Shown: one piece after another, positions 11,753 to 31,011 of the stretch | How positions within the stretch are numbered: position 1 is the stretch's first letter | Layout: every line of letters starts with the position of its first letter | Assembly (NCBI RefSeq): GCF_003852235.1 | Contig: NZ_CP027732.1 | Location: forward strand, 5,772,506 to 5,836,505 | Length of the DNA stretch: 64,000 bases | Reading direction: 5' to 3' | Source of the DNA: Pseudomonas sp. R4-35-07 | Lineage (GTDB): Bacteria > Pseudomonadota > Gammaproteobacteria > Pseudomonadales > Pseudomonadaceae | The notes under the pieces: model-generated | Told to the model about the DNA's origin: nothing | Database searches by the model: none | The model's input: the letters and a program-made list of their open reading frames with translations, nothing else | Made by a program: the position numbers and the translations under genes

Positions 11753-11797
11753 GGGTTGGCATCATTCAGACCGTGTAGAGCGCTTGATCCTACGCGT

Positions 11798-12441
11798 TTA
11801 TGCAAGCCAATCCAGTGTGAGGATCAAGCGACGCTCATTGGCTTTCAGTGCAGGTGAGCGGTGAATGAGGCCATGGTCTTCGTTGCCATGCCATTTGGTG
11901 CCCTTGAGCAGGGCCACCTCTCCACAGAGAATTTGCTCGATGCGCTCGGTGGGCTCTGCGTCGGGCTGGCTTAATCGTCGGCGGTCCATGACGCCTTCGC
12001 GCAGCCATTGGCTGCCGACGCCAGCGTAGGTGGTGATCAGCCGCACAGGCACATGGTCGACGTGAAAACGTGGGCACATGGCCCTGTCCAGCAGGCGCAG
12101 ACGCACGCCGATGCGCCTGGCGCCCAGCAGGCAGGCGAATGCACTGACCAGCCAGGACACATCGGCGATAAAACCATCATAGCCTTCAAGATCGCGGCAA
12201 CGGGGCGCCAGCCCCTGCAGGTTCGGCGCGCTGTCTTCGCGGTCCAACTCGATAACTAGTGCTTCGGCCAGCGGCTCATCGAGCGCCACGACCAAGGCGG
12301 CGAATTCGGCGATGTGCAACGGTAATTGGCGCTGCCACAGCGCCAGGTTCACGCCGTCTTCCAGGATGTCAGCCAGCGCCAGCGGGGTTTGCCCGCGGGT
12401 TTGGCGAACCACCGGGCGCAGGGGAGTAAGCGGGGCCAACA

Positions 12442-12442
<1 letters not shown>
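11798..12442 (-). CDS. DUF1826 domain protein
   Basis: A 214-residue protein of the DUF1826 family, of unknown biochemical function. The C-terminal half holds conserved His and Cys residues (MCPRFHVDHVPVRL, KWHGNEDHGLIHRSP) arranged as in an iron/2-oxoglutarate oxygenase-like fold, which is inference only. DUF1826 genes are commonly neighbours of COG0523 GTPases in Zur regulons. Its ATG overlaps the zigA stop (TGATG), so the two are translationally coupled behind the Zur box at 13699. Confidence 0.85.
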
Positions 12443-13650
<1,208 letters not shown>

Positions 13651-13698
13651 CGGTTCGCTCTCATCAGGCTGCCCGGTCGAGCCAGGCTTTGTTTTTAT

Positions 13699-13711
13699 GT
13701 TATAGTATAAC
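13699..13711. promoter_or_regulatory. Zur box, zigA promoter
   Basis: The 13-mer GTTATAGTATAAC is a perfect palindrome except for the centre base and fits the GTTATAnTATAAC Zur consensus of gamma-proteobacteria. It lies between zigA (minus) and a small secreted protein gene (plus). It abuts the most likely ATG of the plus gene, so repression of zigA is the safest reading. Confidence 0.93.
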
Positions 13712-13712
13712 A

Positions 13713-14102
13713 ATGCAAATAAGCCAACCCTCCTTGCTCTTCGCGATTTGCGCCCTGTTATCAGCAGTGGCAGGACCTGCCTGTGCCCAACCCCCAAGCC
13801 TGCTAGCCAACTGCACCCGCAGCGCCAACCTGCTGGCCTGTGTCGACCCGCTGGGCAACGCCTATAGCGTGGCGACCGTTGGCAGCACCACGTATCTGCG
13901 CGGGTTCGAAGTGATCGGCAAACGCTACTGGGCACAAACTAACAGCCGCTATGGGCAGCTGACGTTTTTTACCGGGTTGGCATCGGACGGTGAGGCATGG
14001 GTTGGCTACACGCGGCGCGTGGGCTGGACCACCCTTAACCGGTTCTCCAGTTCGGGTGGCGCCAGCGCCAGGTTCACCTGCAGCCGAATGACCGGCTGTT
14101 AG
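13713..14102 (+). CDS. Small secreted protein of unknown function, adjacent to a Zur box
   Basis: A 129-residue protein that I do not recognise. Residues 1-25 look like a signal peptide ending PACAQ. The mature part has four Cys residues (in ANCTRS, LACVD, FTCSR and the terminal TGC), enough for two disulfides, and several aromatic glycine-rich strands ([18 protein letters not shown]). The start is doubtful: the ATG at 13713 has no ribosome site because the Zur box occupies it, a TTG at 13689 would read through the box, and a TTG at 13734 would shorten the signal. It converges on the amidase gene with a 4-base overlap. Confidence 0.6.
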
Positions 14103-15310
14103 ACCTGGTTGTTCTTCTGCTCCTGCACCCAGGCCATGTAGCTGTTCATTGGAGGGTTCTTCTCGAAGTATGTTTTCAGCCCGTTGAACAAGCCGTCCGC
14201 CACTGCCTGTTGATGGCGCGCCGTCACCAGCCGCTGGGCGTCCTGGGTGTTGGAGATAAACCCGGTCTCGACCAGGATCGACGGCACGTCGGGCGATTTG
14301 AGCACCGCGAAGCCAGCCTGCTCCACACGCTTCTGATGCAAGCTGGTGATGTTTTGCAGGCTGCCCAACACCGCGCTGCCCAGTTGCAGGCTGGAGGCGA
14401 TGGTGGCGTTCATCGACATGTCGAGAATCACGCCCGCGAGCATCGGGTCCTTGTCCTTCAGGTTGAGTAACGTCGTGGCGCCCAGCAGATCCGCGCCGTT
14501 TTCGCGCTGTGCCATGAAACGCGCGGTTGCCGAGGTGGCACCGCCCTCGGACAACGCATACACCGAGGCCCCCGATGCGGTGAGCCTGGGTGCCGCGTCG
14601 GCATGCACCGAGATGAACATATCGGCTTTGTGCTGGCGGGCGATGTCCACGCGCTTGCGTAAAGGCACGAAAAAGTCATCGTTGCGCACCAGCTTTACAT
14701 CGAAACCCTTTTCGCGTTTCAAGCGTTTAGCCAGCAACTGGGCAATCGACAACACCACGTCTTTTTCCCGCTGGCCTTTGGAGCCGATGGCGCCGGGGTC
14801 TTTGCCGCCATGGCCAGGGTCGACCACCACGATGATGTCGCGCCTGGGATGAGCTTTATCCACCGGCGCGATCAATGGCGCAGGCTCAGCGGCGATTTGA
14901 CGAGGCGCCGAGGTGGCGCGAGTCAGGTCGAGTACCAGGCGATGACCCTGACCTTCCTGGGGCGGCAATAAAAAACTGTTGAGCTGCATCGGTGCGGCCA
15001 GGTCCAGTACGATGCGGGTGTCGGCCTTGCCAAAATGCCCGGAGCGAATCGAGGTAATTCCGCTGTTCTTCAGCATCAACTGGGAGAAGTCTCCACTGAG
15101 CCCGGCGCCGCTCAGGTCAATGATCACGCGATCCGGGGCGGCCAGGGAAAACGTCTTGTATTGCACCGGCCCGCTGAGGTCGAACACCAGCCGCAGCTTA
15201 TCCTCCGAACGCCACAGGCGCGCATTGCGGATTTGCGTGGCGCAGGCCCCCGGCGGCAAGGCGAACAAGGGGCTGACCAGCAGCAGGTTGAGGAGCTGAC
15301 GTCTGTGCAT
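14099..15310 (-). CDS. Zur-linked N-acetylmuramoyl-L-alanine amidase (AmiC-like)
   Basis: Periplasmic zinc amidase of 403 residues that cuts the peptide stem from peptidoglycan during cell separation. It has an N-terminal twin-arginine signal (MHRRQLLNLLL), an AMIN domain (about 30-130) and an Amidase_3 domain (about 165-390) with zinc ligands in DPGHGG, QREKD and SVHAD and the catalytic Glu in ILVETGF. There is no LysM domain. The start at 15310 places the twin Arg at the N-terminus; an upstream TTG at 15346 is less likely. It shares a spacer and Zur box with folE2, suggesting a back-up amidase made when zinc is short. Confidence 0.9.
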   Translation of the reverse strand: MHRRQLLNLLLVSPLFALPPGACATQIRNARLWRSEDKLRLVFDLSGPVQYKTFSLAAPDRVIIDLSGAGLSGDFSQLMLKNSGITSIRSGHFGKADTRIVLDLAAPMQLNSFLLPPQEGQGHRLVLDLTRATSAPRQIAAEPAPLIAPVDKAHPRRDIIVVVDPGHGGKDPGAIGSKGQREKDVVLSIAQLLAKRLKREKGFDVKLVRNDDFFVPLRKRVDIARQHKADMFISVHADAAPRLTASGASVYALSEGGATSATARFMAQRENGADLLGATTLLNLKDKDPMLAGVILDMSMNATIASSLQLGSAVLGSLQNITSLHQKRVEQAGFAVLKSPDVPSILVETGFISNTQDAQRLVTARHQQAVADGLFNGLKTYFEKNPPMNSYMAWVQEQKNNQV

Positions 15311-15393
15311 GACCAATACCGCAAATAAAGGAGCGTCCCTGCTCAACGTGGCTGAAGAAAGGCTGGAGCAGAAATTTCATCGTCGAGGTAATT

Positions 15394-15406
15394 GTTATAC
15401 TATAAC
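15394..15406. promoter_or_regulatory. Zur box between amidase and folE2
   Basis: GTTATACTATAAC, again a perfect 6-1-6 palindrome matching the Zur consensus. It lies 33 bases before the folE2 ATG and 84 bases before the amidase ATG, so it can control both divergent transcripts. Confidence 0.94.
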
Positions 15407-15438
15407 ATGTCGAATCATTTCCAACGATGGACCTGCTT

Positions 15439-16329
15439 ATGAATGCGCTGACTCTGCCGGATATCGCCACGCAGGCTTCACGCCAAGCCTTGCCACTCGA
15501 CTGGGTGGGCATGTGCGGCATCGCCTTGCCGGTTCTGCTCGAGGGCCAACGTCTGCCTGCCACCGCCGATGCAGGGGTGAGCCTGGACGATGGCTTGGCC
15601 CGTGGTATTCATATGTCACGCCTGTACCTGGCGCTGCAGGTGTTCGACCAGCAACCGCTTACGCCTGCACTTCTGCGTAATGTACTGCAGCGCTTTCTCG
15701 ACACACATGAAGATTTATCTAACAACGCCTACCTGCGGATCCACACCCATTTACTGTTGAAACGCCCCGCCCTGGTCAGCCCATTGGACGGTTGGAAGCG
15801 CTACCCGGTAAGCATCGAGGCACGTCTGGAAAACCAGATGTTCCACGTGGAACTAAAAATTGACGTTGCTTATTCCTCGACCTGCCCGTGTTCCGCTGCC
15901 CTTGCCAGGCAATTGATTCAGCAGCAATTTCTCGAAGATTTCGCCAACACGCCATTGCGGCATGCAGACGTGTTGACCTGGCTCGGCAGCACCAATGGCA
16001 TCGTTGCCACGCCCCACAGTCAGCGCAGCAGCGCACAGTTGCATGTGCAACTGCAAGGCGACCAATTGTCCGTCATCGATTTGATCAACGCTGCCGAAGC
16101 CGCGCTCGGCACCGCTGTGCAAACCGCAGTGAAGCGTGCCGACGAACAAGCCTTCGCGCTGGCCAACGGGCAGAACCTGATGTTCTGCGAAGACGCCGCC
16201 CGCCGCCTGAACCTCGCCTTGAAACGCTCGGATGCGGTCAAAGCCTTCCACCTCAAAGTGATCCACGCTGAAAGCCTGCACGCGCACGATGCCGTGGCTG
16301 AAAGCCGTTGGACGAGACCCTCCCCATGA
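15439..16329 (+). CDS. folE2: GTP cyclohydrolase I type 2 (FolE2), zinc-independent
   Basis: Catalyses GTP to 7,8-dihydroneopterin triphosphate, the first step of folate synthesis, in place of zinc-dependent FolE. It is a T-fold enzyme of 296 residues. The conserved Cys lies in SSTCPCSAALARQL (about 150-165), and the C-terminal SLHAHDAVAES motif typical of FolE2 is present. The start at 15439 begins the conserved MNALTLPDIA; the in-frame ATG at 15427 has no ribosome site. The stop overlaps the ATPase start (ATGA). It heads a probable folE2-ABC importer operon behind the Zur box, and contains a parS-type site. Confidence 0.94.
   Translation: MNALTLPDIATQASRQALPLDWVGMCGIALPVLLEGQRLPATADAGVSLDDGLARGIHMSRLYLALQVFDQQPLTPALLRNVLQRFLDTHEDLSNNAYLRIHTHLLLKRPALVSPLDGWKRYPVSIEARLENQMFHVELKIDVAYSSTCPCSAALARQLIQQQFLEDFANTPLRHADVLTWLGSTNGIVATPHSQRSSAQLHVQLQGDQLSVIDLINAAEAALGTAVQTAVKRADEQAFALANGQNLMFCEDAARRLNLALKRSDAVKAFHLKVIHAESLHAHDAVAESRWTRPSP
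15839..15854. promoter_or_regulatory. parS site (ParB-binding palindrome) inside folE2
   Basis: TGTTCCACGTGGAACT contains the perfect 14-base palindrome GTTCCACGTGGAAC, the form of parS found in Pseudomonas chromosomes. It lies within folE2, about 35 kb from parAB and 48 kb from oriC, a typical location for origin-proximal ParB loading. It is the only perfect copy I found in the window. Confidence 0.88.
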
Positions 16330-16994
16330 TCATCTGCAACGCTTTGCGCTGGGGCGCCCCGAGCCAACCGCTGACCCCCGCCGTGGATTTCACCCTGGCA
16401 AAGGGCAGTCTCACTGGCGTCATCGGCCCCAATGGCTTTGGCAAAAGCAGCCTGCTCAAAGTCATCGCCGGCCTGCAAAAGCCGCTGGCGGGGACCGTCA
16501 GCGTCGCTGTTCCACGCCGTGGCGGCTTGGCGTTCCTGCCTCAGCAGCAACACCTGGACCGCCAGTTCCCCATCAGCCTGCAAGAACTGGTTGCCGCCGG
16601 ATTCTGGGGCACCCGGCTCACACCACCGCAACGCAGCGAGCGCCTGCAAACCGTGCTGGAAGACTGGTGCCTCAGCGGCCTGGAGCAACGCCCATTGATG
16701 GCGCTGTCTGGCGGCCAGCTGCAACGCGCCCTGCTCGCCCGCATGAGCCTGACCGACGCACCGGTCCTGCTGCTCGACGAACCTCACGCGGCCCTCGACG
16801 AAGAAGGCCAGGCGCTGTGCTGGAAACACATCCACGCCTGGCACGAAGCGGGCCGCACGCTGATGGTGGTCTGCCATGACCTGGCGTCGGTGCGCCACCA
16901 CACTCCGCATGTGCTGCACATCAAAAGCACCGGCTGCGCATTGGGCCCGAGCAAAGAGCTGATCCGCCCACAACCGCAATTGCAGGTGGCCTGA
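16326..16994 (+). CDS. Metal ABC transporter ATPase (ZnuC/AztA type)
   Basis: Cytosolic ATPase subunit of a zinc/manganese-class ABC importer; 222 residues. Walker A GPNGFGKS (34-41), the signature LSGGQ near 126, and Walker B VLLLDEPHAALD near 150 are intact, followed by the switch His in MVVCHDL. The start ATG overlaps the folE2 stop, and its stop overlaps the permease start (TGATG), so the three are tightly coupled. Zinc is the likely substrate because of the Zur box upstream of folE2. Confidence 0.92.
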   Translation: MIICNALRWGAPSQPLTPAVDFTLAKGSLTGVIGPNGFGKSSLLKVIAGLQKPLAGTVSVAVPRRGGLAFLPQQQHLDRQFPISLQELVAAGFWGTRLTPPQRSERLQTVLEDWCLSGLEQRPLMALSGGQLQRALLARMSLTDAPVLLLDEPHAALDEEGQALCWKHIHAWHEAGRTLMVVCHDLASVRHHTPHVLHIKSTGCALGPSKELIRPQPQLQVA

Positions 16995-17860
16995 TGCACT
17001 TTGCTGCTCACTTGTGGATGCCCTTTGTCGACTTCGTCTTCATGCGCCGCGCGCTGATCGGCGGCCTGGTACTCGCCTGCAGCACGGCGCCGCTGGGCGT
17101 GTTTCTGATCCTGCGGCGCATGAGCCTGATCGGTGACGCCGTGGCCCACGGCATTCTGCCCGGTGCCGCCCTGGGCTTCTGGTTCGCCGGGTTGAGCCTG
17201 CCGGCACTGACTATCGGCGGCCTCGGTGCGGGCCTGAGCATGGCCGGGCTATCCGCCTGGATCACCCGCCGCACCGGCCTGCGTGAAGACGCCAGCCTTG
17301 CCGCCATCTACCCTATCTCCCTCGCTGCCGGCGTGCTGATCCTGGGCATCGCCGGCAAGCGCCTGGACCTTTTGCACCTGCTGTTCGGCTCGGCCCTGGC
17401 CGTGGATGAGACCACCCTCACCGGCATGCTCTGGGTCTGCGGCTTGAGCCTGATCGCCATGGCGCTGATCTACAAACCGCTGCTGCTCGATACGCTCGAC
17501 CCGCTGTTTCTGCAAACCGTCAGCCGCCTCGGCCCGCTCGCCCACGGGCTGTTCCTGACCCTGGTGGTGCTGAACCTGGTCATCGGTTTCCAGGCCATCG
17601 GCGCCTTGATGGTGGTGGGTTTGATGATGTTGCCGGCCATCGCTTCGCGCTTCTGGAGCCGGCGCCTGCCGGTGCTGATCGCAGTATCGGCCGTGCTGGG
17701 ATGCCTGTCGGTGTGGCTGGGATTATTGCTGTCGTTCTACTACTCACTGCCCAGCGGCCCGGCCATCGTGCTGGTGGCGGGCGCCGGGTATGCGTTGTCC
17801 GTGGTTTTCGGTCCGGTGCACGGCTTGCTGCGCCGCCCGCCCTTGCTTACATCCCAATGA
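16994..17860 (+). CDS. Metal ABC transporter permease (ZnuB/AztB type)
   Basis: Inner-membrane permease of the ABC-3 (zinc/manganese/iron) family; 288 residues with eight or nine hydrophobic helices. The early RRMSLIGDAVAHGILPG motif is the conserved cytoplasmic loop of this family. It overlaps the ATPase gene by one base and ends with an ATGA that could also start a longer form of the binding protein. Confidence 0.92.
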   Translation: MHFAAHLWMPFVDFVFMRRALIGGLVLACSTAPLGVFLILRRMSLIGDAVAHGILPGAALGFWFAGLSLPALTIGGLGAGLSMAGLSAWITRRTGLREDASLAAIYPISLAAGVLILGIAGKRLDLLHLLFGSALAVDETTLTGMLWVCGLSLIAMALIYKPLLLDTLDPLFLQTVSRLGPLAHGLFLTLVVLNLVIGFQAIGALMVVGLMMLPAIASRFWSRRLPVLIAVSAVLGCLSVWLGLLLSFYYSLPSGPAIVLVAGAGYALSVVFGPVHGLLRRPPLLTSQ

Positions 17861-17871
17861 GGTGTTTTCCG

Positions 17872-18750
17872 ATGCGCGCTCTACTTGTGCTGTTCAGTCT
17901 GCTGTTGCCCCTCTCGATGGCCCAGGCCGCCGATAAACTCCAAGTGGTCACCAGCTTCAGTATTCTCGATGACATCACCCACCAGATCGGTGGCGATCAT
18001 ATCCAGATCAGCAACATGGTCGGCCCGGACGCCGACGCCCACACCTACGAACCCACGCCGGACGACGCCAAGGCGTTGCTCAAGGCCAGACTCATCATCA
18101 AGAACGGCCTAGGCTTCGAGCCTTGGCTGGACCGCCTGGTGAGCAGCACCGAGACCAAGGCCACGGTGGTCACCGCCAGCAAAGGCGTGATCTCCCACAC
18201 CATGGACGAGGACGGCGAGACCATCCCGGACCCACACGCCTGGCACAATCTGGCCAACGCCGAGATTTACGTCAACAACATCACCAAGGCCCTGGTGATC
18301 GCCGACCCGGCCAACCAGGCGGACTACCTGCGCAACAGCCAGGCCTACCTGAAAGAAATCCACCGCGTGTTGGCCGAAGCCAAGGCCAAGTTCGGCGCAC
18401 TGCCGGCGGGTAACCGCCGTATCGTGACCTCCCATGACGCCTTCGGTTACCTGGGCCAGGCCTATGGCATCCAGTTCCTCGCGCCACAAGGTTTGTCCAC
18501 CGAGCGCGAACCATCAGCCGCCGAAGTGGCCGCGCTGATCACCCAGATTCGCCAGGACAAGGTCAAGGCCGTGTTCATGGAGAACATCAAGGACTCACGC
18601 CTGCTCAAGCAAATTGCCGACGAAAGCGGCGCGCAGATCGGCGGCACGCTGTACTCCGACGCCCTCGCCACCGAAGGCCCGGCCAGCACGTTTATCGGGC
18701 TGTTCGAATACAACCTCAATACCTTGTGCGCGGCTCTGGGCACACCATGA
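17872..18750 (+). CDS. Zinc-binding periplasmic protein of an ABC importer (ZnuA/AztC type)
   Basis: Cluster A-I metal-binding protein of 292 residues with a cleavable signal (1-19, MAQAA). The three family His ligands appear in DADAHTYEPT, PDPHAWHN and TSHDAFGY, and the acidic ligand in YSDALAT. The His-rich loop of classic ZnuA is absent, being replaced by a short acidic loop (TMDEDGETIPD), which is closer to AztC-type binders. The start at 17872 has GAGG 13 bases before; an ATG at 17857 overlapping the permease stop would add five residues. It is the last gene of the folE2 transcript, and convergent with DUF3617. Confidence 0.92.
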   Translation: MRALLVLFSLLLPLSMAQAADKLQVVTSFSILDDITHQIGGDHIQISNMVGPDADAHTYEPTPDDAKALLKARLIIKNGLGFEPWLDRLVSSTETKATVVTASKGVISHTMDEDGETIPDPHAWHNLANAEIYVNNITKALVIADPANQADYLRNSQAYLKEIHRVLAEAKAKFGALPAGNRRIVTSHDAFGYLGQAYGIQFLAPQGLSTEREPSAAEVAALITQIRQDKVKAVFMENIKDSRLLKQIADESGAQIGGTLYSDALATEGPASTFIGLFEYNLNTLCAALGTP

Positions 18751-20928: not shown

Positions 20929-22113
20929 TCAGCGGTAGATATCCTCCCGCGTCCACGGCAGTTCATGGCTGCCATCGGCATGGGGTTTTACCGCCAGGAT
21001 CTGATGCAGGTTGATCCAACCCCGCGCAAAGGCATAGGCGCAACCCGCCAGGTACAGGCGCCAGATACGCAAGGCGTGCTCCGGCACCATCTTCGCCGCT
21101 GCTTCGAGGTTGTCCTCCAGGCGCTCGCTCCAATGGTCCAGCGTACGGGCGTAGTGCAGGCGCAGGCTTTCGACGTCCACCACTTCCAGCCCGACTTCGC
21201 TGATTTCGGCCGTCATCATCGCCAGGTGCGGCAGCTCGCCGTTGGGGAACACGTAGCGCTCGATAAAGTCCCCGGCGCCACGGCCCACGGGACGGCCGTC
21301 GGTGTGTTTGGCAGTAATGCCATGGTTCATCACCAGACCGCCCTCACGCACGGCGCCGTGCAGAATCTGACAGTATTGCGCCAGGTTGGCGTGGCCGACA
21401 TGTTCGAACATGCCCACGCTCACCACTTTGTCGAAACGGCCGTCCTGAGGCAGGTCGCGGTAGTCGAGCAGCTGCAGGTCGACCTGGTCCTCCAGGCCTT
21501 CGGCCTTCACCCGCTCCTGGGCCAGGGCCAGTTGTTCCTTGCTCAAGGTAATCCCAAACACCTTGACCCCGAATTCCCGCGCCGCAAACCGCGCCAGCCC
21601 GCCCCATCCACATCCCACATCGAGCAGATACTCACCCGGCTGCAGCCGCAATTTGCGGCACAGATGGCGGAATTTGTCTTGTTGGGCCTGGTCGATGGAC
21701 TCGCTGCCGGTTTCGAAATAACCGCAGGAATACACCATGTCCTGGTCCAGCCATAGCTGGTAGAACTCGTTGGACAGGTCGTAATGGTAGGAAATGGCCG
21801 CCGCGTCGGTCGCCTTGTCGTGGATCGAGCGCACCGGCCGAGGGCCATCGTCGTCTTCGATCAAGGCGTGACTCAACTCGTCACATACCCTGATCACCTC
21901 GGCGATGGAGCCTTCCAGCTCCAGTTTGCCCTCGACGAAGGCTTCGCCCAGGGCGTCGAGCGTGGGATGGGTCAGTTGTGAGACGACCGTAGGGTCCTTG
22001 ACCACGATGGTCACACTGGGCTCGGGGCCCAGGTTGAATTCATGGCCGTCCCAGAGTCGAAGACGCAGCGGTAGCTGAAGATTCTGTAAGGCCGGTGGAA
22101 GTTGCGCGAGCAT
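20929..22113 (-). CDS. cfa: Cyclopropane-fatty-acyl-phospholipid synthase
   Basis: S-adenosylmethionine-dependent enzyme that adds a methylene bridge to unsaturated acyl chains of membrane phospholipids, usually in stationary phase. It has 394 residues, with an N-terminal lipid-binding domain (1-110), a SAM-binding motif LDVGCGWGGL (about 168-177), and the VGMFEHVG and ERYVFPNGELP segments of the active site. A GGGGGGA ribosome site precedes the ATG. It lies downstream of the bufferin genes on the same strand with an 89-base gap, so it may be read from its own promoter. Confidence 0.95.
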   Translation of the reverse strand: MLAQLPPALQNLQLPLRLRLWDGHEFNLGPEPSVTIVVKDPTVVSQLTHPTLDALGEAFVEGKLELEGSIAEVIRVCDELSHALIEDDDGPRPVRSIHDKATDAAAISYHYDLSNEFYQLWLDQDMVYSCGYFETGSESIDQAQQDKFRHLCRKLRLQPGEYLLDVGCGWGGLARFAAREFGVKVFGITLSKEQLALAQERVKAEGLEDQVDLQLLDYRDLPQDGRFDKVVSVGMFEHVGHANLAQYCQILHGAVREGGLVMNHGITAKHTDGRPVGRGAGDFIERYVFPNGELPHLAMMTAEISEVGLEVVDVESLRLHYARTLDHWSERLEDNLEAAAKMVPEHALRIWRLYLAGCAYAFARGWINLHQILAVKPHADGSHELPWTREDIYR

Positions 22114-22202
22114 GAGTAGTCCCCCCTTGTTTCAGACGTCTGCTGTGAGGGTAGACCATCCAAAATAAAGTAGGAAGCTATCGATTAAATAACTGCCTGC
22201 CA

Positions 22203-22988
22203 TTAAGCCCGACGCTCGAGCAACCCGTCCTGGATCCACTGTTTCAACCATGTGGCCGCTTGCAGTGGCGCACCCTCTTCATAAGTGACTGCCAACTCGA
22301 CGCACAGTTCTGAAAAGTTCCAGCTGCTGGCGGTCATGCCTATCAGGGCGTGGGCTTCGGCGGGCTCGAGACTGCGATAACGACACAGGTTCTGATGGCG
22401 CCACACCAGGCAGACCTGCGCCAGGTCCAGCGCCTGGCTGCCGGGAAAGTCCGATTCATCCTTATTGGCCCGCCAGATGCCCAGCGTGTTGAAACGGCAC
22501 GTTAGCTGCTGCACTGAAGGCACCAGCGATACGCGCAATGCCGGCCAGTCTTCAGGCGCCAGTTGCGCCATATGGTCGAGGGTCAGCGGCTCGCCCGCAG
22601 GCGCGTCGAATGCCAGGGTGAATGCCCACTCCAGCCGCGCCAGTTCCGCCAGCGGGACACTTTGTTCGGCCATCAGGTGCTCAAGAATAAACCCTGCAAA
22701 ACGCTCACCCAGCCACCGCAGGCTGTAATGGGCCGAGGGATAACGACGAATATACGCTTGGCTCAGCGCGGCAAACTCATCATCGCCCAGCCAATACCGG
22801 ATGGCGGCAAAGTCGTGACGTAATACGTCCTGCAATCGGGACAGGTAGGCGTTGTGATAAATCGCCAGGCCCGTGTCCACATCCAGCGTCGGCCCGCCAA
22901 GCAAGGTGGCGGCAAAGCCACTGTCGGCGGTGCAGGTTTCAGACAGCAGATGTGCCTCGAACGCCCGTTGCCAATCGATCAAGCGCAT
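22203..22988 (-). CDS. bufC: BufC/HvfC partner protein (DUF2063, DNA-binding domain-like)
   Basis: A 261-residue protein of the DUF2063 family (residues 1-100 carry the MRLIDWQRAFEAHLL and GLAIYHNAYLSRLQDVLRHDF signatures). In bufferin and methanobactin-like clusters this protein binds the precursor peptide and presents it to the DUF692 enzyme. Its start overlaps the bufB stop by 10 bases, indicating translational coupling. It is the last gene of the cluster; no DoxX-family (BufD) gene follows, unlike the four-gene layout known elsewhere. Confidence 0.87.
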   Translation of the reverse strand: MRLIDWQRAFEAHLLSETCTADSGFAATLLGGPTLDVDTGLAIYHNAYLSRLQDVLRHDFAAIRYWLGDDEFAALSQAYIRRYPSAHYSLRWLGERFAGFILEHLMAEQSVPLAELARLEWAFTLAFDAPAGEPLTLDHMAQLAPEDWPALRVSLVPSVQQLTCRFNTLGIWRANKDESDFPGSQALDLAQVCLVWRHQNLCRYRSLEPAEAHALIGMTASSWNFSELCVELAVTYEEGAPLQAATWLKQWIQDGLLERRA

Positions 22989-23824
22989 AGCGACCGCCTG
23001 GCCAACGCAGTGGCACCCAGTTCCCGGGCCTTGTTCAATTCAGCCAGCAGCACTTCGAACGGCGGGAAATGATCGTCGCGCTCCAACAGCGTCGAGACCG
23101 GCCCCAGATGTTCCAGCGTGCGCTGATAGAGCGCCCACACCGGATCGCACACCGGCTGATCGTGGGTATCGACCACGTAGTCGCCGTAGTCCCTATGCCC
23201 CGCCAGATGCAGCTGGCGAATGCTTTCAGGCGGCAGGTTGCGAATGAACGTCCAGGCATCGAATCCGTGATTACGCGAGCTGACGTACACATTGTTCACG
23301 TCCAGCAGCAATTGGCATCCGGTCAGATGCGCCAGGGCATTGAGAAATTGCCACTCAGTGAATTCATCGGCCTTGGAGCGCACATAGCTGGAGACGTTTT
23401 CCAGCACCAGCGGGCGTTGCAACACGTCCTGCACCTGAAGCACGCGACCGGCCACGTGGTACAGGCTTTCTTCGGTGTACGGCAGGGGCAGCAGGTCATG
23501 CAACTGGTGTGCGCTGCCACGGCTCCAGCACAGGTGATCGGAAATCCAGGCTGGCTGGATGCGCTCGGCCAGGGCCTTTATCTGCTTGAGATAAGCGGTG
23601 TCGATGGCATGGGGCCCGCCGATCGATAACGACACGCCGTGCATCACCAAGGGGTAGCGTTCGGCTATGGCGTCCAGGTAATACAAGGCCTTGCCGCCCT
23701 GCACCAGATAATTCTCGGAGATCACTTCGAACCAATCCACTGCAGGGGATTGGGCAAGGATCTGTTCATAGTATTCGTGACGCAAACCCAGGCCGTAACC
23801 CAGGGAGGGAAGAGAACGGGTCAT
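22979..23824 (-). CDS. bufB: BufB, DUF692 multinuclear iron enzyme (MNIO) that modifies the bufferin peptide
   Basis: A TIM-barrel, multinuclear non-heme iron oxidase of the DUF692 family; 281 residues. Family members convert Cys residues of a precursor peptide into heterocycles that bind copper. Conserved metal-site segments visible here are LGLRHEYYEQIL, FEVISENYL, LSIGGPHAID, WISDHLCW, LVLENVSSYV, LLLDVNNVYVSSRNHGFD and LAGHRDYGDYVVDTHDQPV. There are two adjacent ATGs; the second (23824) has better spacing from AGGAG. It lies 63 bases after bufA, with a strong hairpin in that gap. Confidence 0.92.
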   Translation of the reverse strand: MTRSLPSLGYGLGLRHEYYEQILAQSPAVDWFEVISENYLVQGGKALYYLDAIAERYPLVMHGVSLSIGGPHAIDTAYLKQIKALAERIQPAWISDHLCWSRGSAHQLHDLLPLPYTEESLYHVAGRVLQVQDVLQRPLVLENVSSYVRSKADEFTEWQFLNALAHLTGCQLLLDVNNVYVSSRNHGFDAWTFIRNLPPESIRQLHLAGHRDYGDYVVDTHDQPVCDPVWALYQRTLEHLGPVSTLLERDDHFPPFEVLLAELNKARELGATALARRSLCA

Positions 23825-23844
23825 CATGCGCTCCTGGAAAGTGT

Positions 23845-23870
23845 CCGCAGCGGCGCGAGGTCCGCTGCGG
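23845..23870 (-). promoter_or_regulatory. Hairpin in the bufA-bufB gap
   Basis: The 9-base arms CCGCAGCGG and CCGCTGCGG are perfect complements around an 8-base loop. There is no T run, so it is not a classical terminator. In this position it could protect the bufA message or reduce read-through, giving more precursor peptide than enzyme. Confidence 0.65.
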
Positions 23871-23887
23871 TTGCACTCGCGTGTCGG

Positions 23888-24139
23888 TTACTCGCCGACT
23901 TTGCCACCGGCCTTGTCGCACTCAGCCTTGGTCATGGCCTTGAAGCCGTGGCCCTTGCACTCCGCCTGGCCTTTGCAGGCGTTTTCAGCGGTTTTGCAAT
24001 CGTTCATGCCTTTGCAGGACGTGACACCGTAGCAATGAACCGGAGCGTCGGCGGCCTGTACCTGGGTGGCGACGCCGGCAAACATGGAGGCCGCAGCGAT
24101 AGCCAGGGCAGCACCGGAAACGGCGTGTTTGATATTCAT
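23888..24139 (-). CDS. bufA: BufA precursor peptide (DUF2282), bufferin-type copper metallophore
   Basis: An 83-residue exported precursor. Residues 1-29 are a Sec signal ending VQA, and the core has six Cys at 36, 42, 48, 55, 61 and 74, within the family words [22 protein letters not shown] and [11 protein letters not shown]. In characterised BufA1 peptides some of these Cys are converted to thiooxazole rings that bind copper in the periplasm. The ATG at 24139 follows AGGA and begins the signal; an upstream start at 24199 would spoil it. It lies 116 bases downstream of the ATPase gene, so it may have its own promoter. Confidence 0.9.
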
Positions 24140-24255
24140 TGTGTAGTCCTCATCGGTCAGTGGTGATGCCGGTCTGAGCGGATTGCCCAGTCTCGACACA
24201 CCACTAGAGTGAGGCGCCCTTTTAGCGTTACAGCCCGGTACGAAGTTTTCTGAAA

Positions 24256-26142
24256 TTATTCGTCAAGCTTCAACAGCGGCTCCTGAAAACGCAGCAATCG
24301 CCCGGCGTTACCCAGTACCAGCAAGGTGCTGAGGTTATGCAACACCGCTGCGATCATGGCTCCGGCGGCGCCCAGCCAGCCGAAGGCGGCGAACACCACG
24401 ATGGCCAGCGTCCAGCCCAGGCCGATGATCACATTCACCTGCAAGGTGTGCCGGCACTGGCGGCTCAAGCGCACGCAGGTGCCCAGGCGGCGCAGGTCGC
24501 TGCCGATCAACACCACGTCTGCCGAGGCCAGCGCGATATCGGCACCGCCCGCGCCCATCGCCACGCCGACCACACCGGCTTTGAGGGCAAGGGAGTCGTT
24601 GATGCCATCCCCCACCACCATCGGCCGGAAACCGCTGCCGATCTCCCCCAGCACACGGTTGAGTTTGTCTTCCGGCAGCGCTTGGGCCTGGACCTCAGCG
24701 ATGCCCACATTCACGGCCAGGCTGTCGGCCACGCTCTGGCGGTCGCCGGTGAGCAGCAACTGGCGACCCAGCCCCAGCTCGCGCAGTTCCTGCAGGGCCT
24801 GGCGCGCCTCGGGTTTGACGCTATCGGCCAGCAGCAGCCAGGCCAGGAACTGTCCGTTCAGCGCCAGCCCGGCAATCGGGCCGTCATGGTTGGGCACGGC
24901 GGTCGTGGCGATAGCCAGCTGCTCGAACAGTTCGGGACGGCCCAGCGCCGCTTCGCCCTGTTCAGTGTGCGCAACGACACCGAGTCCCTGGCGCTCGCGA
25001 ATATCGGTCAGCACCACGCGCTGTTGCTGTGTCGCCAACCCCGCCAATGCACGGCTGACCGGATGGCTGCTGGCCGCACCGAGGCTGGCCGCCAGGTTGA
25101 GCAAGGCCTGGCGATCGGTAGACACGGTTTCGATGGACTGCAGGCGCAAGGTGCCGAAGGTCAAGGTACCGGTCTTGTCGATAACCAGTGAAGTGAGGTC
25201 CGCCAGCTCTTCCAGAAACGCCGAGCTGCGAATCAGAATGCCGTGCCGTGCAGCGACCGCGATCCCGGCGATTGCGGTAGCCGGCGCCGACAACACCAAC
25301 GCACACGGGCACGCCGCCACCAGCACGGCCAGCATCGCCTGGGCGTCGTTGGTGACGAACCAGGTGACCGCCGCCAACAACAGCACCAACACCATGTAGC
25401 TACCGGCATAACGCTCCAGCAACCGGGTGATCGGTGGCTTGGAACGTTCGGCGTTCTGCATCAGCGCAATCACTTTGCCCAGGGTCGACTCATTGCCCGT
25501 GCGCGTCACTTCAAGGCGCAGCAGGCCGTCCAGGTTGATCGCCCCGCCAAACACCTGCACGCCCACGCTGGCTTCCAACGGTACCGATTCACCGGTGATC
25601 GGCGCGGTGTCCAGGCTGGCCTGGCCCGACAGCACCACGCCGTCGGCCGGCACGCGGTCGCCGGCGCGCACTTCGACCACATCGCCGGTGTTCAGCGTGC
25701 CGTTATCCACTTCCACAATGCTGCCGTCAGCCTGCACCCGGCGCGCATGGCTGCGCGTGAGTTTACCCAGCGCGTGGATCGCTTCCTGGGAACCGATCAC
25801 GCTGCGCTCTTCAAGCACATGCCCGAAAATCATGATGATCGGCAGCAGCGCTGCGGTCAGCAGATCGCCAGTGGCCCAGGCGCCGATCATCGCCAGCGCG
25901 ATCAATTGGTCAGTGATGCCATGCAGGCTGGGATAGCGCAGGCTGTACCAGGCCGAACGCATCACCGGCACGGCCACCAGCAGCGAGGCCACACCGAGCA
26001 GCAGTTGGCTGACCCCGCTCTGGTCCGCCGCCAGCCAGCGCCATACCAGGCCTAATACGAGTAAACCCAAGGCCAGCATGGCCAGGGTCAATTGCCGGGC
26101 GGCGCTGCGCTGCTCGGCGGAGGTCAGCATGGGTGCGCTCAT
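24256..26142 (-). CDS. P1B-type heavy-metal ATPase without an N-terminal metal-binding domain
   Basis: Inner-membrane ATPase of 628 residues that moves a soft divalent or monovalent metal. Visible motifs are TGES (actuator), CPC in the ion path (278-280), the phosphorylated Asp in DKTGT (322), SHPVSRA in the nucleotide domain and GDGINDS in the hinge. There is no HMA or His-rich N-terminus; the first helix begins near residue 15. The last helix pair reads [17 protein letters not shown], without the Asp expected for classic ZntA-type zinc exporters. Its start overlaps the SPFH gene stop by 4 bases, placing it in the Zur-boxed operon. Confidence 0.9.
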
Positions 26143-27173
26143 TGTTCGGCTCCCTGAATGATCAAACGGGAGTCGTCTTTAGGATCGACCGTGGTGACGG
26201 AGCCGGCCTGGCCCAGAATCTTCGGCAGGCGCTCGCGGTACAGGCGCAGCAACAGGCCCGGGTCTCGGACTTGCGCCAGGCTGGTGACGGCAGCGGTCTG
26301 CGCCTGGGCATTGGCCAGGCGTTCACTGGCTTGGGCATGGGCGACTTGCACCTGGCGGTCAGCCTCCTGGTTGGCGGTCTGGGTGAGTTTTTCCGCATCG
26401 GTACGCGCGTTGGCCACCGCCTTGTCGGCTTGCTGGCTGGCGGTGAGTACCGCATTGAACGCGTTCACCGCCGGGCCCGGCAGGCTCGATTGCACATCGA
26501 CCCGTGTCACTTCGATGCCCAGGCCCAACCCGCTGGCAGTCAACTGCGCCAAGCGCTTATTGATGCCTTGCACCAAGTCGCCGCGCAGTTTTTCGCGGCG
26601 CTCGGCGGCGCCGTTGTCGGCGCCGATCAGCTCGGGGCGCGCGACCAGGATGGTGTCCAGGTCGCGCGCCGCCGTCAGGGCCACCGCGCTGCGGGTCACC
26701 AGGCGGTCCAACGCCGGCAGCACATGCTCGCCCTGCAACACAAAGGCGTAGGGCTCGGTGACCTTGTAGAACACCCGCACATCCAGCTGCACGATCCCGG
26801 CATCGCCGGTCAGCAAATAGCCGGAACCGGCCAGCGTATCGCTCAGGGGTGTGGCGAAACTGGCCACGCGGTCAGCCTGCACGGCCGCCTCAGAACGCAA
26901 CAGGTTCTCCACCCGACGCTCGATCACCCGGTCTGCCGCCGGCAACAACACCACCTGCTCGAACGGTTGCGGCCAGGCCAGCAGCAGCCCGGCGTTCTGA
27001 ATCCGGTCGAGGGCGCCGAAGTGCAGCACCATGGCGCGGTTCTGCGGGTCGATCTGGCGCACATTGGAAAACGCCCAGGCCAGCGCCGCCAACACGGTGA
27101 CCGCGTACAGCGCCAGGAACGTCAGGCGCCCGGCCTGGATCCAGGGGCTGTCCGGGCTGTCACGCTCACTCAT
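26139..27173 (-). CDS. SPFH/band-7 membrane protein, HflK/HflC-like
   Basis: A 344-residue membrane-anchored SPFH protein with one helix (about 16-38), an SPFH domain (about 40-230) and a long Ala/Gln-rich coiled coil (about 230-300; QQADKAVANARTDAEKL). In E. coli HflK and HflC form a cage around the FtsH protease; the cellular HflK/HflC pair is normally beside hflX, so this is a paralogous set. It overlaps the gene before it and the gene after it by 4 bases each, so a fixed stoichiometry with the ATPase is likely. Confidence 0.85.
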   Translation of the reverse strand: MSERDSPDSPWIQAGRLTFLALYAVTVLAALAWAFSNVRQIDPQNRAMVLHFGALDRIQNAGLLLAWPQPFEQVVLLPAADRVIERRVENLLRSEAAVQADRVASFATPLSDTLAGSGYLLTGDAGIVQLDVRVFYKVTEPYAFVLQGEHVLPALDRLVTRSAVALTAARDLDTILVARPELIGADNGAAERREKLRGDLVQGINKRLAQLTASGLGLGIEVTRVDVQSSLPGPAVNAFNAVLTASQQADKAVANARTDAEKLTQTANQEADRQVQVAHAQASERLANAQAQTAAVTSLAQVRDPGLLLRLYRERLPKILGQAGSVTTVDPKDDSRLIIQGAEQ

Positions 27174-28159
27174 GGCTGCACATCCTTGGGCCCATCCACC
27201 AGCGCGCGGAACGGCGCGGCATCGGTGCGCAGGATGATTTTGGTGCCCGGCGTCACCACGGTGCCCAAGGTATCCAGCGAGCGCAGCAGGTTGTACAGCT
27301 GCGGATTACCCGCGTAGGCGCGTCCATAAATCTGCGCTGCTTCAACCCGCGATTGCGCTTCGATATCAGCGGCTTTCACCGTGGCATCGGCTTGCATGAT
27401 CCGTGCATCACGTTCGGCCGCCGAGCGGATCTGCGCCGCCTCACGCTTGCCCACGGCGGTGCGCTCGGTGGCGATGGTTTCACGTTCGGCGCGCATGCGG
27501 TCGACCGTGGCGGTGAGGGTCACCGACGGCAAGGTCAGCCGTTCGACACCGACCTGGGCGACGCGTACGCCATAGGTGGCCAGCAATTGCTGATCGATCT
27601 GCTGGCGCAGTTGGGCTTCGAAATCGGCGATGCGCACCTGGTTGGCGTCGGTATTGATCAGGCTGGACAGGTCAAAACTGGCCGCCGTGGTTTCCAGCGC
27701 CGAACCGACGAAGGTACGGATCTGCCGCGCCGCTTCATCCGGCTGGTTCTGCACCGCGCGCATGAAGCGTTGCACATTGTCGGTATCGCCCTGCACCTGC
27801 CACGCTACGTAGGCCTGCACGATGATCCGCAGGCCATCGCGGGTGCCGACATCCTGCAGCCCGCTGGAAGTGGTGCGCAGGCGCAGGTCAACCGGAATCG
27901 CCGCTTCAAACGGCGCCGGCCAGCGCCAGCCCAGGCCCGGTTTCAGCAGCACCCGCACCGGGTTGCCGAAACGGGTAATCACCGTGGCCTCGCCGGAGCG
28001 CACCTGCACCAGGCTCGCCGCCGCGATGGCAAACAGCACCAGCACTGCCGCCCAGGCCATACGCCGCCAGGGGAAAGGGCTGTCTGCCTGTTCATCGCCA
28101 TGATGGTGATGGTGGCCGTGATGATGGTGATGACCGTGATCGTGAGAATGAGCGCTCAA
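27170..28159 (-). CDS. HflC-like SPFH protein with a His-rich N-terminal tail
   Basis: A 329-residue SPFH protein. The first 20 residues contain 13 His (positions 4, 6, 8, 10-14 and 16-20), a likely metal-binding tail on the cytosolic side, followed by one membrane helix (about 33-52), the SPFH domain (about 55-235; VITRFGNPVRVLLKPGLGWRWPAPF) and a coiled coil with KREAAQIRSAAERDARI. A His-rich tail is not a usual HflC feature and fits a zinc-linked role. Middle gene of the SPFH trio; 12-base gap from the first. Confidence 0.88.
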   Translation of the reverse strand: MSAHSHDHGHHHHHGHHHHHGDEQADSPFPWRRMAWAAVLVLFAIAAASLVQVRSGEATVITRFGNPVRVLLKPGLGWRWPAPFEAAIPVDLRLRTTSSGLQDVGTRDGLRIIVQAYVAWQVQGDTDNVQRFMRAVQNQPDEAARQIRTFVGSALETTAASFDLSSLINTDANQVRIADFEAQLRQQIDQQLLATYGVRVAQVGVERLTLPSVTLTATVDRMRAERETIATERTAVGKREAAQIRSAAERDARIMQADATVKAADIEAQSRVEAAQIYGRAYAGNPQLYNLLRSLDTLGTVVTPGTKIILRTDAAPFRALVDGPKDVQP

Positions 28160-28171
28160 CAGACAGACTCC

Positions 28172-30076
28172 TTATTGAACGGCTTTACGCGGCACCGAGG
28201 GATCGGCCGGTAAGGTAAAAGATCGCAGATCGATCGTCGGCGCACTGTCGGCGCCCAGGCGATGATCCAGAATAAGCAGTTTGGCGTGGGCCAGGCCCTG
28301 GCTGAGCTGGCCCAGGTACTGTTCCAACACGAAAGCCCGGCCCGCTGCGGCGTAGGCTTTTTGTTCGGCAACGAAGCGCAGGTTGGCCGCCTGGGCACTG
28401 GCATTCACTTCGCGCGCGGTGGCCTGGGCCTGGTTGCGGGCGGTGCTGGCCTGCAGCAACGCCTGGTTGGTCTGCTCGCTGGCCGCGCCACGCTCGCGAG
28501 CGATCAATGCCTGGGCGCCGATCTGCGCGGCTTGCACGCCGTGATAGGCGTTGGCGGCGCCGGCCGGTGGGTGGATCGCTTCGACGACCGTGGCGAGAAT
28601 TTCCACACCGCTGTCGAGCTTTTGCAGGTCTGCTTGTACGCTGCGGCCGATTTCGTCGGCAAGGCGGGTGCGTTGTTCGCCGAGCAATTCATCAAGGGTG
28701 CGTGAGGCAAAGTCGTGCACCAGGATGCGGCTGGCGGTGCTGCGGATCAGGGTCGGGACATCGGCGCTGTTGTAGGTGGCAGCCAGTGCGGCCTGGTCCG
28801 TCAGGCCGATGCGGTAGACGAACCGCACGTCCATGTTGACGATCTGGAAGCTCTGTTTGTCGCCACTGCTGCTGGCGATGACTTGGGACTTGTCATTCAC
28901 ATGGCTGGCGTCCCACAAGCGATTGGCGATCAGCGGCGCCGGGCCTTCGGCGGCGGCCAGCTCGGGCGCGGCGCTTTCGCTGACGCTGGTCGCCAGCTCG
29001 TGCACCACGCCGTTCTCCACGTTCAACACGCGGCCCAGGGGCCAGGGCAACCCAACGTGCAAGCCCGGGCCGAACACTTCGACCGGTTTACCGAAACGCT
29101 CATAAATCCCACGGCCCTGCAGAGGGACTTCATGCACGCCGGTCAGCGCCCAGCCTACCGCCAGCACCACCAGCAGCACCGGCAGGAACGCGCGACGCAT
29201 GTAGGTAAATGCCCAAATCTGGCGCAGGTCGATGCCGAAACGATTGTGCAGTTCATGCTGCAAAGCTTGCAGCGGCTGCGGCGGCCAGCGCAGCAGGCCT
29301 GCGACCACACTCTGCGCCATCAGGCGCGGTTCCAGACGCGGCTGGCGTGGGCTGAACAGTGACAGCACGCCGCGCAGCACAAATTCCAGCGCCACCAGCG
29401 CAGGCAACAGGCCGATCAGCGTCGCCAGCCGCAGCGGCCACACCGATTGCGCACCAGCAAACAACAGGCACAGCGCACTGATCACCAGGCAGGTGATCGC
29501 CACCCGGCTCAATTGCGCCAGTTGCGCAGCTTCCGGCCATTGCACGGCGGTTTCCTGGGCCATGCGCCGCTCGAACACCAGCAAACCGAACGCCAGCGCC
29601 AAGCCCAGCGCCGCGCCGATACTGGCGGATTGACCGACGGCGGCAGCGGGCAGCGCCAGGTTCCAGAATTCGATAACGCTGACCAGCGCCAGCAACGACC
29701 AACCGCACAGCCACAACACCGGCGCGCCGATCTGCTTGCCCAGGCGCTGCGCAAGGCGCTCGTAGCGGCCCGTCTCTACACCCGGCAATTCAACTGCCGG
29801 CTCTTCCAGCGCCTGGGCACGCCAATCGGCTACCCACCACGCCGACTGCAAGCCGGCTACCAGGACGAGCAAGGCCGACGAGCAATTGATCAACACCACC
29901 GGCCAGATCGAGACCGGTGCAAACAGCGCCACAAATAACGCCAGCACCCAACCGGTAACGGCCAAGGCTGTCAGGCTGATACCGGCTTGGCGCAATCGAC
30001 GGGCATGGAACAGCCCCTGCTGAAAACGCGGCAGGCCCTCAACCGAAGCTCCGTCAGCTTCTAGATCCACTTGCAT
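28172..30076 (-). CDS. HflK-like SPFH protein fused to an N-terminal polytopic membrane domain
   Basis: A 634-residue protein and first gene of the operon. Residues 1-330 hold about six to eight hydrophobic helices; only after a further helix (about 310-330) does the SPFH domain start (GRGIYERFGKPVEVFGPGLHVGLPWP, about 340), followed by a coiled coil rich in Ala and Gln (about 520-590). Ordinary HflK has one helix, so this is a fusion or expansion. The start is the ATG at 30076; upstream extension would cross the Zur-like box and a REP. Confidence 0.82.
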   Translation of the reverse strand: MQVDLEADGASVEGLPRFQQGLFHARRLRQAGISLTALAVTGWVLALFVALFAPVSIWPVVLINCSSALLVLVAGLQSAWWVADWRAQALEEPAVELPGVETGRYERLAQRLGKQIGAPVLWLCGWSLLALVSVIEFWNLALPAAAVGQSASIGAALGLALAFGLLVFERRMAQETAVQWPEAAQLAQLSRVAITCLVISALCLLFAGAQSVWPLRLATLIGLLPALVALEFVLRGVLSLFSPRQPRLEPRLMAQSVVAGLLRWPPQPLQALQHELHNRFGIDLRQIWAFTYMRRAFLPVLLVVLAVGWALTGVHEVPLQGRGIYERFGKPVEVFGPGLHVGLPWPLGRVLNVENGVVHELATSVSESAAPELAAAEGPAPLIANRLWDASHVNDKSQVIASSSGDKQSFQIVNMDVRFVYRIGLTDQAALAATYNSADVPTLIRSTASRILVHDFASRTLDELLGEQRTRLADEIGRSVQADLQKLDSGVEILATVVEAIHPPAGAANAYHGVQAAQIGAQALIARERGAASEQTNQALLQASTARNQAQATAREVNASAQAANLRFVAEQKAYAAAGRAFVLEQYLGQLSQGLAHAKLLILDHRLGADSAPTIDLRSFTLPADPSVPRKAVQ

Positions 30077-30104
30077 CCACTCAACGCCCGCTTGTACATA
30101 ATTC

Positions 30105-30117
30105 GTTACGATATAAC
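30105..30117. promoter_or_regulatory. Zur-like box before the SPFH/ATPase operon
   Basis: GTTACGATATAAC matches the Zur consensus at 11 of 13 positions (CG replaces TA in the left arm). It lies 28 bases before the ATG of the first SPFH gene on the minus strand. This degenerate copy is weaker than the two boxes at 13699 and 15394. Confidence 0.75.
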
Positions 30118-30160
30118 ACGCGGCGTGAAATTTTTGTTCGCTTTTGGCTACAACGCAGAT

Positions 30161-30258
30161 CCCCTGTGGCAGGGGGCTTGCTCCCGATAACGGTGGGTCA
30201 GCAGTACATGTATCAACTGACCCAAAGCCATCGGGAGCAAGCCCCCTCCCACATTTGA
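30161..30258. repeat. REP doublet
   Basis: Inverted REP copies (GCAGGGGGCTTGCTCCCGAT at the left, its complement with CCCTCCCACATTTG at the right) around a 41-base centre. With the Zur-like box it fills the 311-base divergent spacer before the ynbA-like gene; no further gene is seen there. Confidence 0.88.
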
Positions 30259-30387
30259 TCTTTGTTGTTCCAAAGATCGTGACTAAACCCCCATAAACAG
30301 GCGGCATCACTGGTACGCGCCCAAATTAATCGGCACACTCCAGAACAGTTTTTTCGCGGCTCCACGGACAGGGAAGCGCCCTCCTTC

Positions 30388-31011
30388 ATGATCTCCATTT
30401 ATCAGCTCAAACCGCGGTTCCAAAACCTGCTGCGGCCCCTCGTGCAGCGCCTTTATGACAACGGCACCACCGCCAACCAGATCACCGTGCTGGCCGGCGT
30501 GATTTCCGTGTTGGTGGGCCTGCTGATTGCCAGCTTCGCCCAGCACTTGTGGCTGTTCGCGCTGATCCCGCTGTGGATGATTGTGCGCATGGCCCTTAAC
30601 GCCGTCGACGGCATGCTCGCGCGCGAGTTCGGCCAGCAATCGCGCCTGGGCGCCTACCTCAATGAACTGTGCGATGTGATCGCCGACAGCGCGCTGATCC
30701 TGCCGTTTGCGCTGATCCCCGACGTCAGCCTGGCGCCCGTGCTGTTGGTGACGCTGCTCGCAGTGTTCAGCGAATACGCCGGTGTGCTGGGGCCGATGGT
30801 GGGCGCATCGCGCCGCTATGACGGGCCGATGGGCAAAAGTGACCGGGCGTTCGTACTCGGGGTGCTGGCCACCGGCGTGGCGTTGGGCTGGTTCGGCGCC
30901 GGCTGGGTCGACACGGTGATGTGGCTGGTCGCCGCGCTGCTGGCCTACACCCTGGTCAACCGGGTGCGTCAGGGCCTCAAGGAACACTCAGACACCTCAC
31001 CGATTGCATAA
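30388..31011 (+). CDS. CDP-alcohol phosphatidyltransferase family protein (YnbA-like)
   Basis: An integral-membrane CDP-alcohol phosphotransferase of 207 residues with about six helices. The family motif DxxDGxxAR...GxxxDxxxD reads NAVDGMLAR then GAYLNELCD here: the first and third Asp are Asn, while the second and the catalytic last Asp are kept. From memory E. coli YnbA shares this change, so it marks a subfamily. The alcohol it uses is unknown. It is first of six plus-strand genes packed without gaps or with short overlaps, resembling ynbABCD plus two more genes. Confidence 0.85.
   Translation: MISIYQLKPRFQNLLRPLVQRLYDNGTTANQITVLAGVISVLVGLLIASFAQHLWLFALIPLWMIVRMALNAVDGMLAREFGQQSRLGAYLNELCDVIADSALILPFALIPDVSLAPVLLVTLLAVFSEYAGVLGPMVGASRRYDGPMGKSDRAFVLGVLATGVALGWFGAGWVDTVMWLVAALLAYTLVNRVRQGLKEHSDTSPIA

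Follow-up and report, generated by a model that had tools for sequence, protein, structure and literature searches.

Seven metal-related genes in one row in a Pseudomonas genome probably form two separately controlled modules, an SPFH-HmtA-type ATPase cluster and a bufferin operon

Does a tight row of genes on one strand have to be one functional unit? The question is raised by seven metal-related genes at positions 22203-30117 of the window, the whole 64,000-nucleotide stretch of Pseudomonas sp. R4-35-07 that was analysed (NZ_CP027732.1, positions 5,772,506 to 5,836,505). Three genes for SPFH proteins and one for a P1B-type ATPase, here called the core, are followed by a three-gene bufferin operon, bufABC (buf). 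The original prediction was that all seven, standing behind a Zur-like box, act together as an SPFH scaffold, an ATPase and a secreted copper-binding peptide. Our analysis suggests instead that the locus very probably consists of two separately controlled modules lying side by side. The bufferin genes have a promoter-like element of their own, shared with a second bufferin operon elsewhere in the genome, and the two halves are gained and lost independently. The features of the locus, in the order of transcription, are as follows.

30105-30117, minus strand: Zur-like box, 28 bases before the SPFH1 start; GTTACGATATAAC, which reads GTTATATCGTAAC on the operon strand
28172-30076, minus strand: SPFH1, 634 amino acids, HflK-like, Band_7 domain at residues 320-531, hydrophobic multi-span N-terminal half
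27170-28159, minus strand: SPFH2, HflC-like, Band_7 domain, one N-terminal span preceded by a histidine-rich tail
26139-27173, minus strand: SPFH3, HflK-like, Band_7 domain, one N-terminal span
24256-26142, minus strand: P1B-type ATPase, probable HmtA ortholog, with E1-E2_ATPase and Hydrolase domains, a CPC motif and HNxST near the C-terminus
24202-24232, minus strand: promoter-like element TGTAACG-N16-CTCTAGTG in the 116-base gap before bufA, common to the second bufferin operon
23888-24139, minus strand: bufA2, 83-amino-acid bufferin precursor with a signal-peptide-like N-terminus and six cysteines (NF050166)
22979-23827, minus strand: bufB, MNIO-type bufferin maturase (NF050167; MbnB_TglH_ChrH, PF05114)
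22203-22988, minus strand: bufC, DUF2063 partner protein (PF09836)

The open reading frames confirmed that the seven genes lie on the minus strand where they had been placed, and the predicted spacing was equally accurate: SPFH1 and SPFH2 are separated by a 12-base gap, SPFH2 and SPFH3 overlap by 4 bases, as do SPFH3 and the ATPase, and 116 bases (24140-24255) separate the ATPase from bufA. BufB and bufC overlap by 10 bases. The bufferin identity of the back half was likewise borne out. BufA, for which Pfam gave no match, scored 97.5 bits against the NCBIfam BufA2 model NF050166 (cut-off 60), and BufB scored 377 bits against the BufB maturase model NF050167 (cut-off 310). As expected of a Buf2 operon, the precursor combines a signal-peptide-like N-terminus with six cysteines, and the MNIO enzyme is accompanied by a DUF2063 partner, with PF05114 and PF09836 both over their cut-offs; against the HvfC-family NCBIfam model, BufC scored 35.6 bits, below the cut-off of 142.

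Across 99 sampled Pseudomonas genomes (SPFH1 counted at E 1e-60, the ATPase at E 1e-100 and Buf2-type bufB at 69% identity or more), 19 carried the core together with bufB, 42 the core only, 16 buf only and 22 neither; five weaker bufB copies (50-52% identity) in core-bearing genomes were excluded from the count. The two halves were not positively associated (Fisher p = 0.29, odds ratio 0.62). They lay side by side in 18 of the 19 genomes with both and on different contigs in the other (G009). The seven-gene order, for which the original prediction had proposed a search of other genomes, is therefore not kept as a unit in the genus, as bufB adjoins the core in 18 of the 61 core genomes.

The surroundings of the two halves give the same picture. 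We fetched 15 unlinked bufB loci, 12 of them from core-lacking genomes. In 11 of these 12 the promoter-like element stands before bufA, and in 10 the next gene is the cyclopropane-fatty-acid synthase that follows bufC in the window, recognised by its start; the exceptions are L193, with only an antisense open reading frame at that place, and L200, with a different neighbour. Two loci, L188 and L189, retain the window's CDP-alcohol phosphatidyltransferase neighbour on the other side, and since both window-type flanks are present, the core alone is missing there. On the core side, the synthase gene comes after the ATPase in 7 of 16 more distant core-only loci, and four core-only loci have scraps of bufC beside the ATPase: one is clear (L110, 80% over 35 residues, E 1e-10, with a stop codon), two are modest (L047 and L049, E 2e-4 and 8e-4, both with a stop codon) and one is weak and overlaps the ATPase end (L050, 37%, E 1e-3). 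On the ATPase tree (98 sequences, 47 with buf) buf has to change state 6 times, with at least 4 of the changes forced by well-supported branches, and on the BufB tree (77 sequences, of which 15 were not core-linked, three of these being distant copies) core linkage has to change 5 times, with at least 3 of the changes forced; both trees were quick and contain many weakly supported forks, and in the ATPase tree the outgroup did not fall on one side of a branch. The two halves are gained and lost independently.

The bufferin genes also have a control region of their own. GTAAC-N14..18-CTCTA occurs in the ATPase-bufA gap at 61 of 62 core-linked bufA loci, a set that includes the window's own locus and some near-copies; the sole miss, L045, reads CTCAAGT in place of CTCTAGT. 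When the 5.84-Mb home genome was scanned, TGTAACGN{14,18}CTCTA gave two matches (two in the reversed control) and TGTAACN{16,19}TCTAGTG also gave two (none in the reversed control). Both patterns hit the same two places, one upstream of the window bufA and the other upstream of a bufA of the DUF2282 type located at 1.47 Mb on the chromosome. In a survey across the genus of the best-scoring bufB cluster (30 loci including the home genome, one without a recognisable bufA), a CTCTA-type element preceded bufA at 19 of the 29 readable loci by a strict rule and at 22 by a looser one; among the misses, several retain TGTAAC followed by CTCAAGT, and others have neither. The halves thus look separately regulated, with the bufA element common to an unlinked second bufferin operon. 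This element and the independent assortment argue against joint action of all seven genes as a single unit, and we set aside a single Zur-controlled operon as the principal explanation. Separate regulation of the halves and a neighbourhood not conserved in other species are two of the outcomes that the original prediction had itself named as refuting it. Three of the unlinked loci (L196-L198) are distant bufB copies in core-bearing genomes, one without a bufA match; the other two, L196 and L197, hold a more distant bufferin cluster (bufB about 50% identical) that lacks the TGTAACG element.

By its layout, the bufA element is a close analogue of the Caulobacter SigF promoter. There, two bufferin operons are transcribed from GTAACC-N16-CGAA under one extracytoplasmic function (ECF) sigma factor, SigF (PMC3511200). 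The Caulobacter operons (CC3254-CC3257 and CC2907-CC2905) have precursor, MNIO and DUF2063 genes in this order, and, as in the home genome, two operons share one promoter motif with GTAAC as its first block and a 16-base gap. They differ in the second block (CGAA there, CTCTA in the window), the window operon has no DoxX gene, and NrsF was not found in the home genome. Another bufferin-type operon, the copper-responsive gigPABT of Cupriavidus metallidurans (PMC10304878), has a DoxX-like gigT and an adjoining sigma/anti-sigma pair, neither of which lies next to the window operon.

Several observations weigh against separate control of the two modules or against parts of it. The Fisher test was not corrected for kinship among the 99 genomes, and one clade of the ATPase tree keeps the two halves stably together (43 of 46 rows). 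No terminator-like site was found between the ATPase and bufA, so that Zur-driven read-through into bufABC is possible, although probably secondary. The NrsF family (PF06532) had no match in the home genome, while the Caulobacter positive control matched, and bufferin control of the SigF/NrsF type was rejected for this genome. A sigma gene carrying the same element was rejected as well: the strict pattern occurs near none of 22 Sigma70_r4_2 loci (3 of which score under the family cut-off), and a looser pattern occurs near 3, which we take as chance. Neither search, then, identified a sigma factor for the element. In P. aeruginosa, PA3282-PA3284 were up 4.1- to 5.0-fold in a znuA mutant, with no Zur site (PMC4542158). 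These may be its bufABC genes, although our searches did not confirm it; if they are, bufferins respond to zinc starvation by another route. For the front half, another study with unchanged hmtA mRNA is mentioned in PMC11761036.

What, then, controls the front half? The Zur-like box predicted ahead of the island is present, and of the 80 named loci fetched, all 79 in which the start of SPFH1 can be read (L049 is cut) have GTTATANNGTAAC within 300 bases upstream of it; the 80 are an uneven sample made up of the query's closest relatives. The bases flanking GTTATANNGTAAC further out are more variable among these loci, and the motif has just two matches in the whole home genome. By conservation the box is real, and it stands before the first gene, as expected of a member of the Zur regulon. 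It weakens with distance: a site with up to two mismatches was found at 10 of 16 distant same-genus loci, and three family-level loci had no Zur-type site near SPFH1, the one match in L215 lying at a distance of 1.3 kb. Just upstream of the box, at window positions 30125-30133, there is a second block (AAATTTCAC on the operon strand) that is almost invariant in the 79 loci; it may be a part of the promoter or another site.

The front half is not new: in gene order and sequence it matches the published hmtA cluster PA2439-PA2435 of P. aeruginosa. In the cluster PA2434-PA2439, HmtA is PA2435 and the HflC/HflK-like proteins are PA2437-PA2439; the members listed rose 5.6- to 14.4-fold when znuA was mutated, and a weak Zur site, with an E-value of 0.11, was assigned to the cluster (PMC4542158). 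PA2437-PA2439 have been placed in the Zur regulon (PMC9431628), and in zinc-depleted cells PA2435 and PA2437-PA2439 were raised, with significance claimed for PA2438 and PA2439 (PMC11761036). Together, the conserved box and the published induction of these counterparts by zinc depletion support the predicted Zur control of the front four genes; one report, on hmtA, is contrary. The order SPFH1-SPFH2-SPFH3-ATPase is also found in an apparently P. aeruginosa-like genome (G494, locus L213), at identities to the window of 57% for SPFH1, 79% for SPFH2, 66% for SPFH3 and 81% for the ATPase. With this PA2437-PA2439-type neighbourhood, the window ATPase is a probable HmtA ortholog; the best 120 of 3941 matches in a protein search were close relatives, none of them named HmtA. 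The clusters differ in that SPFH3 and the ATPase overlap in the window but are about 690 bases apart in L213, and in two other loci of the P. aeruginosa-like genus (L214 and L215) the ATPase reading frame begins with a histidine-rich stretch. Between SPFH3 and the ATPase these two loci encode similar 150-residue proteins with a signal-peptide-like start (L214 8154-8604, L215 8141-8591), absent in the window. No buf match was found in the three 18-kb stretches fetched for L213-L215.

The same 61 of the 99 genomes contain SPFH1 and the ATPase, and no genome contains just one of them, which supports the predicted pairing; in one of the 61 (G034) the SPFH1 match is in two pieces. At family level the ATPase is present in 13 of 34 chosen genomes (13 of 25 in one genus, 0 of 9 in the other). 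Outside Pseudomonas, no core was found in 273 further genomes of the class at E 1e-120, a strict cut-off applied to a set with one same-family genome, and distant kin are possible. The ATPase has its CPC motif at 126 of 126 loci, which are not independent, and a domain scan found no N-terminal metal-binding domain. P1B-2 pumps (ZntA type) are marked by CPC together with the lysine of transmembrane span 7 and the aspartate of span 8 of ZntA, and P1B-4 pumps (sCoaT type) by SPC and a HEGST-like last span. A P1B-2 zinc exporter was rejected, as CPC is present but GLGWT and HNxST stand at the other two places; P1B-4 was rejected too, as HNxST resembles the HEGST of 7qbz, yet CPC stands instead of SPC. 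With CPC joined to HNxST and the ZntA lysine absent, neither classical group serves as a guide to its metal. Work by Lewinson in 2009 reportedly showed that HmtA imports both zinc and copper. Import of both metals by HmtA (PA2435) is also said to need confirmation (PMC10393844).

In the first of the two modules, zinc starvation would lift Zur repression, so that the three SPFH proteins and the HmtA-type ATPase are made. The SPFH proteins may assemble into a membrane cage like that of HflK/HflC, which would hold HmtA or regulate it while it moves zinc, and perhaps copper, from periplasm to cytoplasm. The tail of SPFH2 before its sole span, with a median of 14 histidines over 80 loci (range 0-19, counted on a stretch read in frame upstream, so that a few residues may precede the true start, and with the cut L049 among the zeros), may bind the metal. 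In HflC the N-terminal tail before the span is on the cytoplasmic side; with that topology the SPFH2 tail would lie in the cytoplasm, the compartment into which zinc would be released by an importer.

Like E. coli HflK and HflC, the window proteins have the SPFH domain after an N-terminal span and match the solved HflC/HflK in sequence. They differ in scoring below the NCBIfam equivalog cut-offs (SPFH1 58.3 and SPFH3 89 bits against 159.4 for hflK, SPFH2 91.6 against 134.4 for hflC), in being paired with an ATPase transporter gene and in the multi-span front half of SPFH1, with about six or seven hydrophobic stretches ahead of the domain. A different role for the triad would be to tune the zinc protease FtsH in zinc starvation, HmtA being merely a co-regulated neighbour. 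FtsH is a general protein, yet SPFH1 never occurs without the ATPase in the 99 genomes, and all three proteins fall below the HflK and HflC cut-offs. We regard the FtsH role as possible but doubtful, even though SPFH2 resembles HflC, SPFH1 and SPFH3 resemble HflK, and PA2437-PA2439 have been read as FtsH modulators (PMC9431628). Because SPFH1 was never found without the ATPase, HmtA rather than FtsH appears to be the most likely client of the SPFH proteins.

In the second module, BufB and BufC would modify the cysteines of BufA2 before Sec export, and the exported peptide would buffer copper in the periplasm, provided that a Buf2 bufferin acts like Buf1 as a copper buffer, as we infer from PMC12452194. 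In published expression data, a DUF692 gene set for a ribosomally synthesised and post-translationally modified peptide forms a component distinct from Zur-1 and Zur-2, and it rises with hypochlorite, N-acetylglucosamine and copper (PMC9023270). An ECF-sigma-like promoter would drive the operon and the genome's second bufferin operon alike. Could TGTAACG-N16-CTCTAGTG instead be an activator or repressor site beside an ordinary promoter? No ECF gene with the strict element was found, and before bufA2 the element is followed by another conserved stretch, TGTCGRGAC. These points fit a regulator site, but the element has two blocks at a fixed gap, its first block is like the SigF site GTAACC-N16-CGAA of the Caulobacter bufferin operons (PMC3511200), and a scan of 22000-30400 revealed no sigma-70-like promoter, so we consider a regulator site unlikely. 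TGTCGRGAC, at window positions 24190-24198, is largely retained before core-linked bufA2 and was not seen before the bufA1 genes printed.

A single seven-gene unit, in which Zur release makes pump, SPFH scaffold and bufferin together and the peptide keeps copper out of HmtA or zinc sites, is very unlikely: the common strand, the tight spacing, the missing terminator, the clade with stable juxtaposition and the reported import of zinc and copper by HmtA (PMC10393844) are consistent with it, but bufA's own element is common to an unlinked bufferin operon, core and buf are not positively associated, and buf occurs without the core ahead of the same fatty-acid synthase gene. We give similarly little credence to a combined scheme in which HmtA sits inside a dedicated three-part SPFH cage while read-through has drawn a P. 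fluorescens-subgroup bufferin operon into the Zur response, its periplasmic copper trap stopping copper entry through HmtA.

The locus is most likely a further member of a known zinc-starvation locus beside a further member of the bufferin family, and it cautions that a tight gene row need not equal one functional unit. The parts worth following are the two DNA elements and the strict SPFH-HmtA pairing; no description of an SPFH-HmtA machine or of a shared Pseudomonas bufferin element was found in the literature searched, which covered few subscription papers. Why an HmtA-type ATPase and its SPFH partners are never apart in the sampled genomes is a question in its own right, and a scaffolded metal pump, if true, would extend the range of clients ascribed to HflK/HflC-like cages. 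The promoter-like element that marks both bufferin operons of the genome should lead to the Pseudomonas bufferin regulator.

A larger zinc-starvation block lies close by in the window (10790-18750), with two CobW/COG0523 genes, DUF1826, an amidase, FolE2 and an ABC metal importer with a ZnuA-like protein. It has two perfect Zur-type boxes, at 13699 (GTTATAGTATAAC) and at 15394 (GTTATACTATAAC). The SPFH1 box has two mismatches to the palindrome GTTATANTATAAC and is therefore a weaker site than these two.

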